From Dethiobacter alkaliphilus (GTDB lineage Bacteria; Bacillota; Dethiobacteria; DTU022; UBA8154), in assembly GCA_016841605.1 (NCBI GenBank), contig JAENYV010000001.1:493056-557055 (forward strand): a stretch of 64,000 bases of DNA. Direction: 5' to 3'. The translations under genes were made by a program, and so were the position numbers. Each line of letters opens with the position of its first letter. Position 1 is the first letter of the stretch. The notes under the pieces were generated by a model, which was not told the origin of the DNA, did no database searches, and saw only the letters and a list, made by a program, of their open reading frames with translations. Below, piece after piece: positions 2,912 to 12,502 of this stretch.

Positions 2912-3949
2912 ATGTCACACCGTTCATTAATATTGGGAATAGAAACGAGCTGCGACGATACATCCGCCGGCGTAGTTCTCAATGGACGAACTCTCCTGAG
3001 TAATATTGTGTCTTCCCAGGACAGTCTTCATCACCGTTTTGGCGGTATTGTCCCCGAGATCGCCTCCCGCCGGCATCTGGAAATAATTAATCCGGTGATT
3101 GATGAAGCGCTGGACAAGGCAGGGGTAAAATTCGGTGACCTTGACGGGATTGCGGTTTCATATGGTCCAGGGCTGGTAGGATCTCTTTTAGTCGGAGTTT
3201 CAGTAGCCAAGGCTCTCGCTTTTTCTCTGGATCTGCCTCTGGTGGGGGTCAATCATATTGAGGGACATCTTTATGCTAATTTCTTAACGGATGAGACGAT
3301 TTCTTTTCCGGTTCTTTGTCTGGTTGTTTCCGGAGGGCATACCAATATCCTTTATGTGGAGGGGCACGGGGAAATCCGGGTTTTGGGGAGGACCCGTGAT
3401 GATGCGGCCGGTGAAGTGTTTGATAAAATTGCCAGGGCGCTGGAACTGGGTTTTCCCGGTGGCCCAATAATAGATCGTCTGTCCTGTGAGGGAGATCCTT
3501 CCGCTTTTTCTTTTCCCAGGGCTCTAATGGGCGAAGAGGGGAAACTTGATTTCAGTTTTAGCGGGGTTAAAACTGCTGTTTTAAACTGTATTCGTCAGCG
3601 AACCGGAAAGGAGAGAACCGAAAAGGGGACGGATAACGTTTTTTGCAACGTTGCCGCATCTTTTCAGGCAGCCGTAGTGGATGTTCTGGTCGAAAAGTGT
3701 CTTTTAGCAGCCAAGCAGAGAAGTGTTAAGAAATTTTTATTGGCCGGCGGGGTAGCGGCGAACAGTGAACTCCGGAGAAGGCTACGGCAACGGCTGGAAC
3801 CGGAGAAAATAAAAGTAATTTTTCCTCCTGTTGAGCTGTGCACAGATAATGCCGCAATGATTGCTTCTGCAGGGTATTACCGTTTACAACAAGGGATTAC
3901 AGCCTCTTATGATTTAAATGCTGAGCCGTCTCTGGGTTTAGGAGACTAA
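2912..3949 (+). CDS. tsaD: tRNA N6-adenosine threonylcarbamoyltransferase TsaD
   Basis: TsaD is the catalytic subunit of the t6A complex. LGIETSCDDTSAGVV at the N-terminus, the metal-binding HIEGH (about residues 113-117), SGGHTN (about 138-143) and GGVAANSELR near residue 275 are all present, as is the C-terminal FPPVELCTDNAAMIA. The length of 345 aa is normal. The start ATG is 5 bp after rimI, with AAGGGG just before it. It is the last gene of the operon; the 397-bp spacer that follows contains DnaA boxes. Confidence 0.97.
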   Translation: MSHRSLILGIETSCDDTSAGVVLNGRTLLSNIVSSQDSLHHRFGGIVPEIASRRHLEIINPVIDEALDKAGVKFGDLDGIAVSYGPGLVGSLLVGVSVAKALAFSLDLPLVGVNHIEGHLYANFLTDETISFPVLCLVVSGGHTNILYVEGHGEIRVLGRTRDDAAGEVFDKIARALELGFPGGPIIDRLSCEGDPSAFSFPRALMGEEGKLDFSFSGVKTAVLNCIRQRTGKERTEKGTDNVFCNVAASFQAAVVDVLVEKCLLAAKQRSVKKFLLAGGVAANSELRRRLRQRLEPEKIKVIFPPVELCTDNAAMIASAGYYRLQQGITASYDLNAEPSLGLGD

Positions 3950-4048
3950 ATAAATGTTAAAAAAAATGTTAAGAAAAACTAGGATTTATGTAAATAAATT
4001 TAAGGGAATATTTCCTTGAATTCGGGAATAGAATAATAGGATAGGTTT

Positions 4049-4090
4049 TTTTCCACAAAGTAATTCACATTATCCACAAAGTTATCCACA
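4049..4090 (+). promoter_or_regulatory. Cluster of DnaA boxes between tsaD and murC
   Basis: Two perfect DnaA boxes (TTATCCACA) lie at 4070-4078 and 4082-4090 in the same orientation, 12 bp apart start to start. One-mismatch relatives precede them: TTTTCCACA at 4049-4057 and TAATTCACA (against TTATNCACA) at 4061-4069. Four sites thus form a compact same-strand array. The rest of the 3950-4346 spacer is AT-rich and contains no gene that I can see. The array could titrate DnaA or let DnaA control murC. No dnaA or dnaN gene is nearby, so it is unlikely to be the chromosome origin. Confidence 0.6.
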
Positions 4091-4346
4091 GAAGAAAGCC
4101 TTTTTTTTGGGTAAAACAGAAGAACTGTTCACATTTTGGGATAAGTTCACATAAAATATTGCAGTTGCAACCCCGAATGTTTTTTCCGATAAGGAGAAAA
4201 AACGCCAACAGGGAAAAAATATGTTATTTAATGTCAGCGTTATACATAAAATAGATGCTGCCTGCGTGGGGATATAATTTAAAAATCAGGTAACTTTTAT
4301 GATCATAATTTTGGTATGAAGATTTTGATATGAAGAGAGGGGTTTC

Positions 4347-5756
4347 ATGTTAACAAATATTCATAAAGTACACTTTACCGGTATTGGGGGGTACGGAATG
4401 AGCGCACTGGCTCTCGTACTGCTGCAGGATGGTTTTGATGTGAGGGGCTCAGATATTAAACCTTCAAGGCTGACAGCAATCCTGGAAAAAGCGGGCGCAA
4501 AGATCTATCTGGGGCATGACGCTCTGCAGGTCGGGGACGCGGAGCTGCTTATTTACTCCACTGCTATCCCTTCCGATAATCCTGAAATTGAAACTGCCCG
4601 GGCCAAAGAAATTCCTCTCTGGCACCGTTCAAAGCTGCTTGCCGCGTTACTGAATGAAAGATACGGGATTGCCGTTGCCGGAACCCATGGCAAGACGACA
4701 ACTACAGCAATGATTTCACTCTTATTGGCTAGAGGCGGTTTTGATCCGACTGCTGTTATTGGGGGAGAAGTCTCCTTTTTTGATGGGAATGCCCGTTTGG
4801 GGAAAAGCCCCTATATTGTTGCGGAAGCTTGCGAGAGCGATCATTCTTTTCTCCGCTACAAACCATTAATTAGTTTACTGACTAATATTGAAGCGGATCA
4901 CCTGGAACATTATGAGGGGAATTTTGCTAAGTTGGTGGATACATACCTGGTCTTTATCAATAACGTCAGAGAAGGGGGAACGGTTTTTTTCTGCAGCGAT
5001 GACCCGCTTTTGAAAAAATTAAGAGCGGACTTTCGCCCACAGTCTGTTTCCTACGGATTATTCCCCGGTGCAGACATCCGGGGAGATGAAGTGAAAATCG
5101 AGGGACTTGGTTCTCGATTTCGCGTTGTTGCCAATGGGAAGCCTCTGGGAGAACTGGTCTTAAAAGTTCCCGGTTTACACAATATCCGCAATGCGCTTGG
5201 TGCTACAGCAATCGCCCTGTTTTTAGGCCTTGATTTTTCAGCAATCAGAGAGGCATTTTCCCTGTTCGAGGGAGCCAGAAGGCGTTTTGAAATTATCGGG
5301 GAAGCCGGCAAAGTTCTTATAGTGGACGATTATGCCCATCATCCCACGGAGATCAAGGCAACCCTTGAAGCGGCCCGGGAAAGCGGGAGGCGAATCATCT
5401 GTCTTTTCCAGCCGCACCGTTTTACACGGACAAATTTTTTATGGCCGGAATTTATAGAAGCTTTTGATGCAGCGGATCTACTCTTGTTAACCGATATTTA
5501 TCCGGCCGGAGAGGCCCCCATTCCGGGCATTACTTCCCGCAGGCTCGCGGAGAAGGTTAAAGAAAGGGGGCTTCAGCACGTCTACTATTTTGCTGAGCCA
5601 TCGGAAGCTGTTGATTATTTACAGGGTCTTGTCCGTGAAGGAGATATGGTCTTGACCATGGGAGCGGGAGATGTTTGGAAAGCCGGAAGAAGCCTGCTAG
5701 ACATACTTACTTCCAGGGAATGTGCTGTTTCCCCGGAAGTAACAAACTCAATATAG
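4347..5756 (+). CDS. murC: UDP-N-acetylmuramate--L-alanine ligase MurC
   Basis: MurC adds L-alanine to UDP-MurNAc in the first peptide step of peptidoglycan synthesis, using ATP, in the cytoplasm. The nucleotide-sugar binding GIGGYGMS is at residues 12-19, the ATP loop GTHGKTTTT at about 111-119, the Mur-ligase central motif EACESDHSFL follows near 161, and DDYAHHPTEI near 326 is MurC-specific. At 469 aa it is full length. The ATG follows AGAGAGGGG by 5 bases. It stands apart from other mur genes here, as a single gene after a DnaA-box spacer. Confidence 0.97.
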   Translation: MLTNIHKVHFTGIGGYGMSALALVLLQDGFDVRGSDIKPSRLTAILEKAGAKIYLGHDALQVGDAELLIYSTAIPSDNPEIETARAKEIPLWHRSKLLAALLNERYGIAVAGTHGKTTTTAMISLLLARGGFDPTAVIGGEVSFFDGNARLGKSPYIVAEACESDHSFLRYKPLISLLTNIEADHLEHYEGNFAKLVDTYLVFINNVREGGTVFFCSDDPLLKKLRADFRPQSVSYGLFPGADIRGDEVKIEGLGSRFRVVANGKPLGELVLKVPGLHNIRNALGATAIALFLGLDFSAIREAFSLFEGARRRFEIIGEAGKVLIVDDYAHHPTEIKATLEAARESGRRIICLFQPHRFTRTNFLWPEFIEAFDAADLLLLTDIYPAGEAPIPGITSRRLAEKVKERGLQHVYYFAEPSEAVDYLQGLVREGDMVLTMGAGDVWKAGRSLLDILTSRECAVSPEVTNSI

Positions 5757-8096: not shown

Positions 8097-9797
8097 ATGA
8101 AAAAAACTGCCCTTTTCCTGGCAGGATGTTTATTTTTTTTCTGTTTTGTTACTTCTTCTGTCCTGGCGCAAACAATCGATATTGTTATGGGAAATGAAAT
8201 TAAAGTTTTTATGGAAGACGAACAACTTAGCTTTCGTTCTGCCCCCTTTATTCAAGATGGGCGGGTTATGGTCCCTATGAGAACCATACTTGAAGCTCTG
8301 GGGGCTACGGTAGAATGGGACGGGGCAACCAGAACTATTACTTCGACGCGTGCTGATACAATCGCTGTTTTAACGTTGGACTCCCTTTCCGCAAAAGTAA
8401 ACGGAAATGTTGTTACTCTGGATGCACCCGCCTGCATGGTAAACGAGGTAACATTTGTTCCTCTCAGATTCTTTTCCACAACATTCGGTGCTGAAGCTGT
8501 CTGGGACGGGGAAGCAAAAACGGTCCGTATTACACGACCGTCAACCATTGAAACGCTTACCATTATACCTGAGGAGCTTTCTTTAAAGAGCGGCCAGGAT
8601 TTTACTTTGACAGTGAAAGCAAGGCATAGTGACGGCAGTGAAGAGGTGATCGCCGCTGATCAGGTTAAATGGCAGACTACCAACTCCAATGTAGCTTCTG
8701 TTACGGATGGTGCGGTCTCTGCGTCAGGAACCGGAACAGCGGTGATTATGGCCGGTTACCAGGGCAAAACAGCGATCCTTAACATTAAAGTGGATGAATC
8801 ACTAACAGGAATTTCTCTTTCTCCTGTCAATGTGGTTCTGCAGGTGGGCGAAAAAAAAGACCTGACCGTTGAAGCCCGCTACAAGGAAGGTGTGCAGCAG
8901 TCACTTGATTCCGAGAAAGTAACATGGGTTACAACCAACAGCCGCGTCGCGACCGTAACAGACGGTAATGTTGTTGCCGTGAGTTCCGGCACTGTGACCA
9001 TTACGGCCCGCTACAACGATTATACCGCGACAGCTATTGTGGAAGTATTTAGTGATATGCCCATTGAGTTTAATGACCTGGAACTCCTGGCGGCCATTCG
9101 GGCCCAGCTGGGGAAAGCCTCCGGCTCTATCTACCGTTCCGAACTGGCCGGTTTAACCGGGCTGGTGGCGGAAGACAGGCTGATCGAGGATCTCTCCGGC
9201 CTGGAGTATTGTACCGGATTGACATCGCTTTCACTGAATAATAATCATATCCGGGATCTTTCTCCCCTCGCTTCCTTAACAAACCTGCGGAGGCTGGAAT
9301 TGGGATACAATCAGGTGCGGGATCTCTCACCACTGGCCTCGCTGACGAATTTAACCCGGCTTTCCGTGAACAATAACCAGGTTGTCGATATTTCACCTTT
9401 ATCCTCGCTGACCGATATAACCTGGCTTTCCCTGGCGACGAACCAGATTACCAACATTTCTTCCCTCTCTACAATGAAAGAGCTGGCGACCCTAAATATC
9501 TCCGGGAACAATATCACTAGCCTTTCTTCTCTTTCTGAGCTTTCCAGTCTAAATACTCTCCTGATGTGGAGCAATCAGGTCTCCAGCCTGGTACCTCTGG
9601 CCGATTTGTTAAACTTAACTGTTCTCAGCGCCTGGTCAAACAATATCAGCGATATTTCTTTGCTGGATGATTTCCCCAACCTGGCCTGGCTGGTAATTGG
9701 GGACAACCCCCTGGACCTTTCCAACGGTTCCGCGACGATGACTCTTCTCCGTAAACTTCGCAGCAGGGGTGTTTACGTAAGGACGGAAAGTTTTTAA
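8097..9797 (+). CDS. Secreted protein: copper-amine-oxidase-like stalk domain, BIG2 domains and internalin-type leucine-rich repeats
   Basis: A 566-aa exported protein. Residues 1-25 are a signal peptide ending SVLAQ. Residues about 30-155 match the 'copper amine oxidase N-terminal-like' domain common in clostridial envelope proteins (GRVMVPMRTILEALGA, then EVTFVPLRFFS). Residues about 155-320 hold two BIG2-type Ig-like domains (KWQTTNSNVASV, then VTWVTTNSRVATV). From about 350 to the end run 22-residue leucine-rich repeats of the internalin type (NLRRLELGYNQVRDLSPLAS). No sortase signal, SLH domain or membrane anchor is visible, so it is probably secreted or held non-covalently. Its role is likely binding of a protein or polysaccharide surface. 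It has an AAGGAGG site 7-8 bp before the ATG. Confidence 0.85.
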   Translation: MKKTALFLAGCLFFFCFVTSSVLAQTIDIVMGNEIKVFMEDEQLSFRSAPFIQDGRVMVPMRTILEALGATVEWDGATRTITSTRADTIAVLTLDSLSAKVNGNVVTLDAPACMVNEVTFVPLRFFSTTFGAEAVWDGEAKTVRITRPSTIETLTIIPEELSLKSGQDFTLTVKARHSDGSEEVIAADQVKWQTTNSNVASVTDGAVSASGTGTAVIMAGYQGKTAILNIKVDESLTGISLSPVNVVLQVGEKKDLTVEARYKEGVQQSLDSEKVTWVTTNSRVATVTDGNVVAVSSGTVTITARYNDYTATAIVEVFSDMPIEFNDLELLAAIRAQLGKASGSIYRSELAGLTGLVAEDRLIEDLSGLEYCTGLTSLSLNNNHIRDLSPLASLTNLRRLELGYNQVRDLSPLASLTNLTRLSVNNNQVVDISPLSSLTDITWLSLATNQITNISSLSTMKELATLNISGNNITSLSSLSELSSLNTLLMWSNQVSSLVPLADLLNLTVLSAWSNNISDISLLDDFPNLAWLVIGDNPLDLSNGSATMTLLRKLRSRGVYVRTESF

Positions 9798-10639: not shown

Positions 10640-12502
10640 ATGAAAAAACCGGAAATAGAGCAAGACCGGGAAGCTAACAGGGATTATTATAAACAAATAG
10701 CTAAAAAAACCGAAGAGCTTTTGAAAGCCGAACAAAATTTTTCCTCCGCTATTCTGGATACCGTGGGTAGCCTGGTGACTGTTTTAACTTCCCGGGGTGA
10801 AATTATGAGGATAAATCAAGCCTGCAGGCAGGTAACAGGTTTTGTATCCGAAGAGGTGGAAGGAAAGTTTTACTGGGACGTGTTTATTCCCGCCGAAGAA
10901 GTCGAACTGGAAAAGGCATTTTTTGAGGCACTTCAACCCGAACATTTCCCCTTAGAGTTTGAGAATCAGTGGGTGATGAAAAACGGGACCGTGCGGGATT
11001 TCTTGTGGTCCGATACGGCAATGCCGGGTAAAGACGGTGCTGTGCAATACCTGATCAGCAGCGGGGTCGATATTACAGAAAGAAAAAAAACTGAAGAGAC
11101 TCTCAGGGAAGCCAATGAAAAACTGCGCGCGCTCATTCACGCATCTCCTCTGGCTGTCATTTCGCTGGATTCCGCCGGCCGGATTACCAGTTGGAGCAGC
11201 GCCTCGGAGCGTATTTTCGGGTGGACGGAGAAAGAGGTTTTGGGAACATTTCCCCCCATGATCCCGGAAGACCAGCGGGAAGCATTTGAAACTTTGCGCA
11301 GGGATACCTTCCAGGGGAGGTCTTTTACGGCGATGCAAACACGCTATTTAAAAAAGGATGCTCTTCCTGTTGATCTCAGTTTATCAACGGCCCCTCTGCG
11401 CAACAGAGGGGGGCTGGTTCAAGGTATTATGCTGCTTGCCCAGGATATTAGCGAGCATAAAAAAGCAGAAGAAAAGATTAAATATTTAAGCTTTCATGAC
11501 AAACTGACAGGTCTATATAACCGGGCTTATTTCGAGGAGGAGCTAAAGAGGCTGAATACGGAAAGGCAGCTTCCCCTTAGCATTATTATGGGGGATGTCA
11601 ATGGATTGAAATTGGTTAATGATGCTTTTGGTCACAAAGAAGGTGATAGTTTATTAAAAGCAATTGCCGCTATTTTAAAAGATTCCTTTCGCAAAGAGGA
11701 TATCGTTTCCCGTTGGGGTGGAGATGAATTTGCTGTTCTTTTGCCGAAAACACCGTATAAAGTAGCGTTGAAACTGGTGGGGCGGGTAAAAAAAGCCTGC
11801 CGAAATGTTGACTGTACTCCCATTCATTTAAATATTGCCCTCGGTGCCGCTACCAGGGAAAGTCTTTCTCAGGAAATCGAAGAGGTGATCAAAAAAGCGG
11901 AAGCAGAAATGTATTTTAATAAGATGTTGGAGGCAAAAGGTTTCCGTATTTCTACGATTGCTTCACTTTTGCACACTCTGGGAGAAAAATGTTTTGAGAC
12001 GGAAGAACATGTCTGGCGAATGCAAAAGCTGGCGGCAGAGATGGGTGCTGCCCTGCAGTTGAATGATACCCAGATCGACAACTTGAGTTTGGCCGTGGCA
12101 ATGCATGATATCGGTAAAATAACCCTTCCCGAAAAAATTCTTTTAAAACCGGGACACCTTACGCAGCAGGAATGGCTTAATATTAAGAAACATCCCGAAA
12201 GAGGTTACCATATAGCCCTTTCTTCTTTGGAACTGGCTTTTTTGGCGCCTATTATTCTAGCTCATCATGAACGCTGGGACGGCAAGGGATATCCACAGGG
12301 ATTGCAAGGGGAAGAGATTCCGCTGTTGTCCCGTATTATTGCCGTTATTGATGCTTATGACGTTATGACGAATGAACAGATTTATAAGAAGGCGATTAGT
12401 TCGGAGGAGGCGCTTGCAGAAATAGAGAGATGTGCCGGGAGTCAATTTGATCCCAAACTGGCAAAAATTTTTATTAATGTTGTTGCGGGTGGAGGGAAAT
12501 AA
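10640..12502 (+). CDS. PAS-PAS-GGDEF-HD-GYP cyclic-di-GMP turnover protein
   Basis: A 620-aa soluble signalling protein. A PAS domain spans about residues 35-150, ending in the PAC-like SSGVDITERKK. A second PAS spans about 158-278 (LLAQDISEHKKAEEK). The GGDEF domain spans about 285-445 with the intact motif RWGGDEFAVLLP near 356-367. The HD-GYP domain follows, with MHDIGK near 488 and HHERWDGKGYPQGL near 542. Both the diguanylate cyclase and phosphodiesterase active sites look intact. No transmembrane segment is present, so it senses an internal ligand. AGAAGGAGG precedes the ATG; its stop shares bases with the ATG of the next HD-GYP gene, indicating a two-gene operon. Confidence 0.92.
   Translation: MKKPEIEQDREANRDYYKQIAKKTEELLKAEQNFSSAILDTVGSLVTVLTSRGEIMRINQACRQVTGFVSEEVEGKFYWDVFIPAEEVELEKAFFEALQPEHFPLEFENQWVMKNGTVRDFLWSDTAMPGKDGAVQYLISSGVDITERKKTEETLREANEKLRALIHASPLAVISLDSAGRITSWSSASERIFGWTEKEVLGTFPPMIPEDQREAFETLRRDTFQGRSFTAMQTRYLKKDALPVDLSLSTAPLRNRGGLVQGIMLLAQDISEHKKAEEKIKYLSFHDKLTGLYNRAYFEEELKRLNTERQLPLSIIMGDVNGLKLVNDAFGHKEGDSLLKAIAAILKDSFRKEDIVSRWGGDEFAVLLPKTPYKVALKLVGRVKKACRNVDCTPIHLNIALGAATRESLSQEIEEVIKKAEAEMYFNKMLEAKGFRISTIASLLHTLGEKCFETEEHVWRMQKLAAEMGAALQLNDTQIDNLSLAVAMHDIGKITLPEKILLKPGHLTQQEWLNIKKHPERGYHIALSSLELAFLAPIILAHHERWDGKGYPQGLQGEEIPLLSRIIAVIDAYDVMTNEQIYKKAISSEEALAEIERCAGSQFDPKLAKIFINVVAGGGK

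Follow-up and report, generated by a model that had tools for sequence, protein, structure and literature searches.

Is a dense array of DnaA boxes in the spacer between tsaD and murC a site that acts on replication, a control element for a neighboring gene, or a product of chance? The array lies in the window, by which we mean the whole 64,000-nucleotide stretch of DNA analyzed here. An earlier note had described two perfect and two near-match boxes on one strand between positions 4049 and 4090, and had suggested a DnaA titration site or replication-coupled control of murC. All four boxes were located at those positions, between tsaD and murC.

DnaA boxes and flanking features of the array

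The tsaD ORF (positions 2912 to 3949, plus strand; Pfam TsaD, E = 1.5e-98) adjoins the array in the window as in most carriers examined, and the murC ORF (4347 to 5756, plus strand; Pfam Mur ligase domains) is the downstream gene in the window's lineage. The boxes, their spacing and their position can be read directly, and all are on the plus strand. An outer box, TTTTCCACA (4049 to 4057, one mismatch), is followed by box 5 of the element model, TAATTCACA (4061 to 4069, two mismatches), and by two perfect copies of TTATCCACA, box 4 (4070 to 4078) and box 3 (4082 to 4090). The array extends beyond 4090, with box 2, CTGTTCACA, at 4125 to 4133, 43 bp from box 3, and a weak extra box, AAGTTCACA, at 4143 to 4151. 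The weak box overlaps the right end, TTCACATAAA (4146 to 4155, plus strand), of an inverted-repeat pair whose left end is TTTATGTAAA (3985 to 3994, plus strand); the sequence GTTCACATAAAAT, at the weak box, is identical in three genomes of the window's genus. The element model R1, which uses sequence only and was built from 33 aligned elements, matched the window at 4047 to 4137 on the minus strand (G000:C30:497102-497192:-, 64.9 bits, E = 1.5e-17).

The window as a whole held 32 DnaA-box sites with one mismatch or less, versus 14.0 ± 3.9 in shuffles. A lone perfect box was seen on the minus strand at 1885 to 1893, within a tsaB-like ORF. Other genes seen in the window encode a protein with copper-amine-oxidase N-terminal, Big_2, and leucine-rich-repeat domains (8097 to 9797) and a PAS-GGDEF-HD signaling protein (10640 to 12502).

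Rarity of the array and its distance from dnaA

The window genome comprises 4,065,565 bp (4.07 Mb) in 36 contigs, with the window on contig C30 and dnaA on contig C17, so that the earlier description of the array as far from any dnaA gene holds as far as the assembly shows. The encoded DnaA has the ATPase, N-terminal, and box-binding domains. Genome-wide, the perfect 9-mer is enriched, with 71 copies (33 + 38) versus 15 for the reversed pattern. Two same-strand copies of TTATCCACA separated by 0 to 6 nucleotides were found once in the whole genome, and that pair belongs to the array by tsaD. The 9-mer counts predict about 0.006 same-strand perfect pairs within 20 bp, which bears out the view that a close perfect pair is unlikely by chance; the next-closest perfect boxes in the genome list are 186 bp apart. 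The second-best R1 match in this genome scored 22.6 bits and adjoins dnaA (C17:53295).

Across 21 chromosomes assembled in one or a few contigs, tsaD lay between 0.087 and 0.364 of the contig from dnaA (mean, 0.195; Kolmogorov-Smirnov P = 0.0023). Four of the 21 are without an element match by tsaD among the matches listed, and gene order alone may explain the distance pattern. The window assembly (4.07 Mb) is larger than those of two congeners (2.1 and 2.4 Mb), and a search of it for 16S rRNA gave no match; the assembly may be enlarged or may contain foreign contigs.

The array does not mark a replication origin

No other array in the genome is as strong, which is why a relocated origin was considered. 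GC skew and ORF strand were scanned in 20-kb bins over 580 kb of C30 and over 220 of the 262 kb of C17. Most of C30 showed positive skew and mainly plus-strand ORFs, and the bin holding the array (480 to 500 kb, +0.079) and the one following it (+0.070) were of the same kind. Around dnaA on C17, skew passed from −0.130 (20 to 40 kb) through −0.053 to +0.183 (60 to 80 kb), and the gene strand switched with it. At the array, the origin signature was absent: neither a switch in GC skew and gene strand nor an adjacent dnaA gene was found. Some features do resemble those of a relocated or second chromosomal origin, namely, the clustering of DnaA boxes in AT-rich DNA, an R1 match better than that of the region beside dnaA, and the neighboring bin at 460 to 480 kb, in which skew is slightly negative (−0.011) and ORFs lie mostly on the minus strand. 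That bin is one of two negative bins on C30, the other being at 120 to 140 kb (−0.054), and both are rich in minus-strand ORFs. Set against the positive skew at the array and the clear switch around dnaA, these features leave an origin at this site very improbable, and relocation was rejected on GC skew.

Conservation across the phylum

A TsaD alignment provided 589 named loci, and the best 80 of them, a selected rather than a random set, were inspected for at least three boxes (one mismatch or less) per 150 bp within 700 bp downstream of tsaD. Such clusters were present in 25 of these 80, among them loci of Bacillus, Anoxybacillus, Amphibacillus, Brevibacillus, Kroppenstedtia, Sporomusa, Phascolarctobacterium, Desulfosporosinus, Thermincola, Thermosediminibacter, Alkaliphilus, Ruminiclostridium, and others. 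Within the same best 80 of 589, none was found in the Lachnospiraceae-titled loci, in the four Clostridium-titled loci, in Selenomonas, Mitsuokella, or Anaerovibrio, or in the six loci from other phyla.

A sample of 139 genomes of the window's phylum was then searched with R1, which matched at E ≤ 0.001 in 113 of them; positional counts use the best 150 matches (E ≤ 3e-5), spread over 94 genomes. Among the matches listed, the best one of each genome was located at most 4 kb past the 3' end of tsaD in 62 of the 94 genomes, and within 1 kb in 60. At E ≤ 1e-9, it lay in the 4-kb range in 25 of 26 genomes among the matches listed, the exception (G188) having its tsaD cut by a contig end. Orientation relative to tsaD was the same in 62 of the 64 adjacent cases listed, and the two opposite cases belong to the window's genus; at least three of the 64 genomes with a tsaD-adjacent match (G000, G001, and G100) also supplied training sequences for R1. 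In the remaining 32 of the 94 genomes, the best match among those listed was not by tsaD, and some of these matches adjoin dnaA (G141 and G178); at E ≤ 1e-7, 19 of the 62 matches listed lie elsewhere than tsaD. Model-like arrays away from tsaD were seen at G164:C13:49700, G164:C30:557, G092:C1:2209492, and G085:C1:84999.

Boxes were also counted independently of R1 (at least three per 150 bp) in the first 500 bp of 136 tsaD-downstream regions; G091, in which no tsaD match was found, G188, whose tsaD runs off its contig, and G000 were not among them. By this count, 87 of the 136 regions carried an array, versus 2 of 393 control tiles taken from those loci, and at least one genome was positive in 49 of the 74 sampled families. 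Boxes in the phylum sample fell on the two strands in a ratio of 404:46, and box-to-box distances peaked at 9, 12, 21, 42 to 44, and 51 to 54 bp. Outside the window's genus, array orientation departed from the rule in G150 (minority) and was tied in G072. A strict four-box arrangement was present in 39 of the 136 loci versus 1 of 389 control windows, so the exact arrangement holds in part of the carriers. Among these 39, the distance between boxes 2 and 3 was bimodal (41 to 44 bp in 18 loci and 50 to 53 bp in 21), as expected where either box of the outer pair may be scored. The array is dispensable, since 49 of the 136 genomes lack it by box count.

This conservation, observed directly, bears on whether the boxes arose by chance or as a simple-sequence artefact. 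A single 9-mer is fairly common, with its 71 copies in the window genome, but the expected number of close pairs, the recurrence of arrays at the same place in those 49 families, the R1 positions by tsaD among the matches listed, and the excess over control tiles all contradict such an account, which we find hardly credible. Neither a high genome-wide frequency of the 9-mer nor a lack of conservation among relatives, the two outcomes that the earlier note had named as counting against the array, was seen in the genome-wide count and the comparison of tsaD-murC spacers.

The array and its inverted repeats in close relatives

A single MurC query against genome contigs retrieved no relatives; murC was searched in 60 relatives, and 30 murC loci were inspected. 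An array precedes murC in 25 of the 30 loci, including 20 of the 21 from the window's own family, so that conservation, which the earlier note had left to be checked, is present here as well as in the 136 tsaD-downstream regions. Two of the five array-less loci are cut by a contig end, 8 and 83 nucleotides from murC. The other three (G015, G032, and G033) showed neither a tsaD match nor an array near murC. Upstream of murC in G015 (L046), a repeated sequence of about 40 nucleotides (CGACTCTCGTTTTGCAGTGAACTTG...) stands where the array would be expected, and an array lies by tsaD elsewhere in that genome.

The layout in these relatives is a box, 42 to 44 bp, a box, 12 bp, a box, 9 bp, and a box, often with one more box 9 bp before the first. 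Read toward murC, the array gives TGTGGATAA in 22 of the 25 loci; the remaining three, all from the window's genus, carry it inverted with the box spacing kept. TTATGT stands just outside the outer box in all 25 loci, and a partner ACATAA lies 158 to 174 bp from it in 24, the value of 158 (L035) stemming from a second TTATGT. These inverted repeats, at a near-constant span of about 170 bp, bound the element in the window's family and order.

In the window's genus, the inverted segment spans the element from repeat to repeat (about 170 bp). Between the repeats, the three genomes of the genus agree at 116 of 174 positions, compared with 23 of 189 in the right flank, a count that includes gaps, two of the spacers being shorter. 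The inversion itself is a direct observation; recombination between the inverted repeats would be its simplest cause. The repeats were considered as a phylum-wide part of the element. This was ruled out: of the 39 loci scored in the phylum sample, the only six with ACATAA at the expected offset (+101 to +105) have murC as the next gene, and the remaining 33 showed none there.

Neighboring genes and control of murC

Of the ORFs that come next downstream of the array in the 87 positive loci, 74 are codirectional. Thirteen are called convergent, about 10 of them convincingly; the calls were mechanical, and three convergent ORFs (L208, L275, and L277) that begin right at the stop of tsaD are probably spurious. 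The next ORFs fall into 24 protein clusters, among them radical-SAM/DUF512 proteins (17), Lgt (15), 5-formyl-THF cyclo-ligase (9), MurC (7), and an acetyltransferase (4). In four Bacillus-type loci, tsaD is followed by a convergent ABC ATPase gene (Pfam assignment of one), with the array between the two, an arrangement like that at gcp/ydiF of Bacillus subtilis. Because the array stays 3' of tsaD while the next gene changes, with murC in only 7 of 87 loci, control of murC was ruled out as its phylum-wide role.

Separation of tsaD and murC was checked in seven relatives. In G026 (L058) and G028 (L060), where tsaD and murC are on different contigs, the array precedes murC; the array's other neighbor in G028 is a divergent gene. 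In G030, the array is on the tsaD contig, 6.4 kb downstream of tsaD. In G032, it lies just downstream of tsaD, and none was found in the 400 bp upstream of murC. In G015, an R1 match lies 111 bp downstream of tsaD on a contig separate from that of murC. A search for tsaD in G033 and G056 found none. The array thus accompanies tsaD phylum-wide but seems, in one family of the window's own order, to have stayed with murC.

The arrangement in G026 and G028 keeps a link to murC live in the window's order, and DnaA could control transcription of murC in this lineage, or of tsaD. Several observations are consistent with such control: the array's place upstream of murC in most of the murC loci inspected, inverted-repeat ends confined, at the scored offset, to the six murC-followed loci, and a codirectional next gene in most positive loci of the phylum. 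A promoter-like sequence directed toward murC, TTCACA-18-TAAAAT (4128 to 4157, plus strand), also overlaps two GTTCACA boxes and lies inside a block that does not differ among the three genomes of the window's genus. It is a weak candidate, as promoter-like matches in the region numbered 2 versus 2.5 expected in shuffles, showing no excess. Against control of murC are the variety of next genes, some of them convergent, the array of G032, the inversion with intact spacing in the window's genus, and the fact that gcp/ydiF, the Bacillus subtilis site at the corresponding position, is missing from the eight directly DnaA-regulated B. subtilis gene sets listed in a review (PMC8203912). We consider transcriptional control by DnaA unlikely. 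Of the earlier proposal of replication-coupled murC control, the general form fails across the phylum; within the window's order, G026 and G028 argue for it and G032 argues against it.

A candidate site for sequestration of DnaA

The reading that we favor, with modest confidence, is that the array is an extra-oriC DnaA-binding element 3' of tsaD, ancestral in Bacillota, that sequesters ATP-DnaA. An ancestral position just 3' of tsaD is probable. From sequence we infer DnaA binding at the window array, its cooperativity, and an effect on initiation, the role more weakly than the binding. DnaA would bind the tandem boxes cooperatively. The trio of boxes (steps of 12 and 9 bp) and the one or two boxes about 42 to 44 and 51 to 53 bp away are spaced at near-whole helical turns, and the box groups on either side of the gap of about four turns would probably join in one DnaA complex. 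Such a complex would keep ATP-DnaA from oriC and thereby restrain initiation, as proposed for the DnaA-box clusters of B. subtilis. In the window's lineage, short inverted repeats mark off the element at both ends, and the segment that they enclose has flipped in place in the window's genus.

Sequestration is supported by the sole perfect tandem pair in the genome and by the best R1 match (64.9 versus 22.6 bits), as well as by conservation across the phylum at the same place as a B. subtilis DnaA site. The titration site proposed earlier gains from the same three lines: uniqueness in the genome, conservation, and the gcp/ydiF position. Against sequestration at a tsaD site stand the arrays found with murC rather than tsaD in G026 and G028 and the one displaced from tsaD in G030, along with the 49 of 136 genomes negative by box count and the 32 of 94 whose best match among those listed is away from tsaD. 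In addition, DnaA overproduction of about 10-fold causes no overinitiation in otherwise wild-type B. subtilis cells, according to an excerpt of one review (PMC13220808), which speaks against simple titration.

A site of the DnaA nucleotide cycle, promoting ATP hydrolysis or ADP release as Escherichia coli datA and DARS do, is quite unlikely in our judgment. Sequestration and a nucleotide-cycle role look alike in sequence. The recurring multibox spacing exceeds what simple titration needs, the flanking repeats could be sites for a second protein, and the B. subtilis counterpart strongly prefers ATP-DnaA (PMC4447404, in excerpt); however, B. subtilis is described as having neither datA and DARS loci nor Hda or IHF in a review (PMC13220808). 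A bolder proposal, possible though doubtful, is that the tsaD 3' site is an ancestral Bacillota replication-control locus and the counterpart of datA and DARS, its spacing assembling a defined ATP-DnaA complex. The Syntrophomonadaceae-like lineage would then have made of it a flippable, murC-tied inverted-repeat cassette of about 170 bp, and in one genus boxes over a murC promoter would couple wall-precursor synthesis to replication.

The purpose of the extra-oriC DnaA-box clusters of B. subtilis is debated, and gcp/ydiF is among the strongest of them. Arrays at the gcp/ydiF position in about two thirds of the sampled families, with recurring spacing and a changing next gene, suggest selection on the site itself. 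One locus and a set of box spacings are thereby singled out for testing replication timing in Firmicutes without Hda, datA, and DARS. Two natural experiments bear on the array's target: its inversion in the window's genus, and the split among relatives, some of which have it by murC and others by tsaD.

Comparison with known DnaA-binding sites

The extra-oriC DnaA-box cluster is already known as a kind, and one member at the same position is known in B. subtilis. As far as the literature searched shows, what is new is the occurrence across the phylum at recurring box distances, the variation in the gene that follows, and, in one genus, an inverted form enclosed by repeats; no report of conservation of the gcp/tsaD site beyond B. 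subtilis was found in that literature, which excluded Ishikawa 2007 and Okumura 2012. The window array has at least three DnaA boxes within about 150 bp and lies outside oriC, as extra-oriC clusters do, and it shares its genomic place, 3' of gcp/tsaD, with an experimentally shown DnaA site.

In excerpts of PMC4447404, gcp/ydiF is one of eight high-affinity DnaA regions of B. subtilis (region 4 of the in vitro table), with 10 sites, Kd values of 0.15 μM for ATP-DnaA and 0.33 μM for ADP-DnaA, and 16-fold more DNA recovered with ATP-DnaA than with ADP-DnaA. Both gcp/ydiF and the window array are multibox DnaA clusters outside oriC, directly downstream of tsaD (gcp), and an array is also present in the four Bacillus-type loci where a convergent ABC gene follows tsaD. 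The two differ in that the B. subtilis region lies between two 3' ends, whereas the window array precedes murC, is flipped with respect to tsaD, and has the inverted repeats TTATGT and ACATAA as its bounds; the comparison is one of position. We take gcp/ydiF to be one of the six DnaA-box clusters that were deleted in B. subtilis.

Those six clusters (Okumura 2012, through excerpts of reviews) are likewise extra-oriC and are proposed to hold DnaA and delay initiation; cells without them initiate early (PMC5295017 and PMC13220808, in excerpt). A strong effect is reported only when all six are removed, and one passage of the same review states that, in B. subtilis, no clusters have been identified as playing a significant part (PMC5295017, in excerpt). 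What sets the present case apart is that the cluster by tsaD is widespread. The oriC of Bacillota (rpmH-dnaA) also carries clusters of DnaA boxes but, unlike it, the window array has neither a skew switch nor dnaA as a neighbor. The datA, DARS1, and DARS2 loci of E. coli are, like the array, noncoding chromosomal DnaA-box sites away from oriC, and their box arrangement differs from that of the tsaD array.
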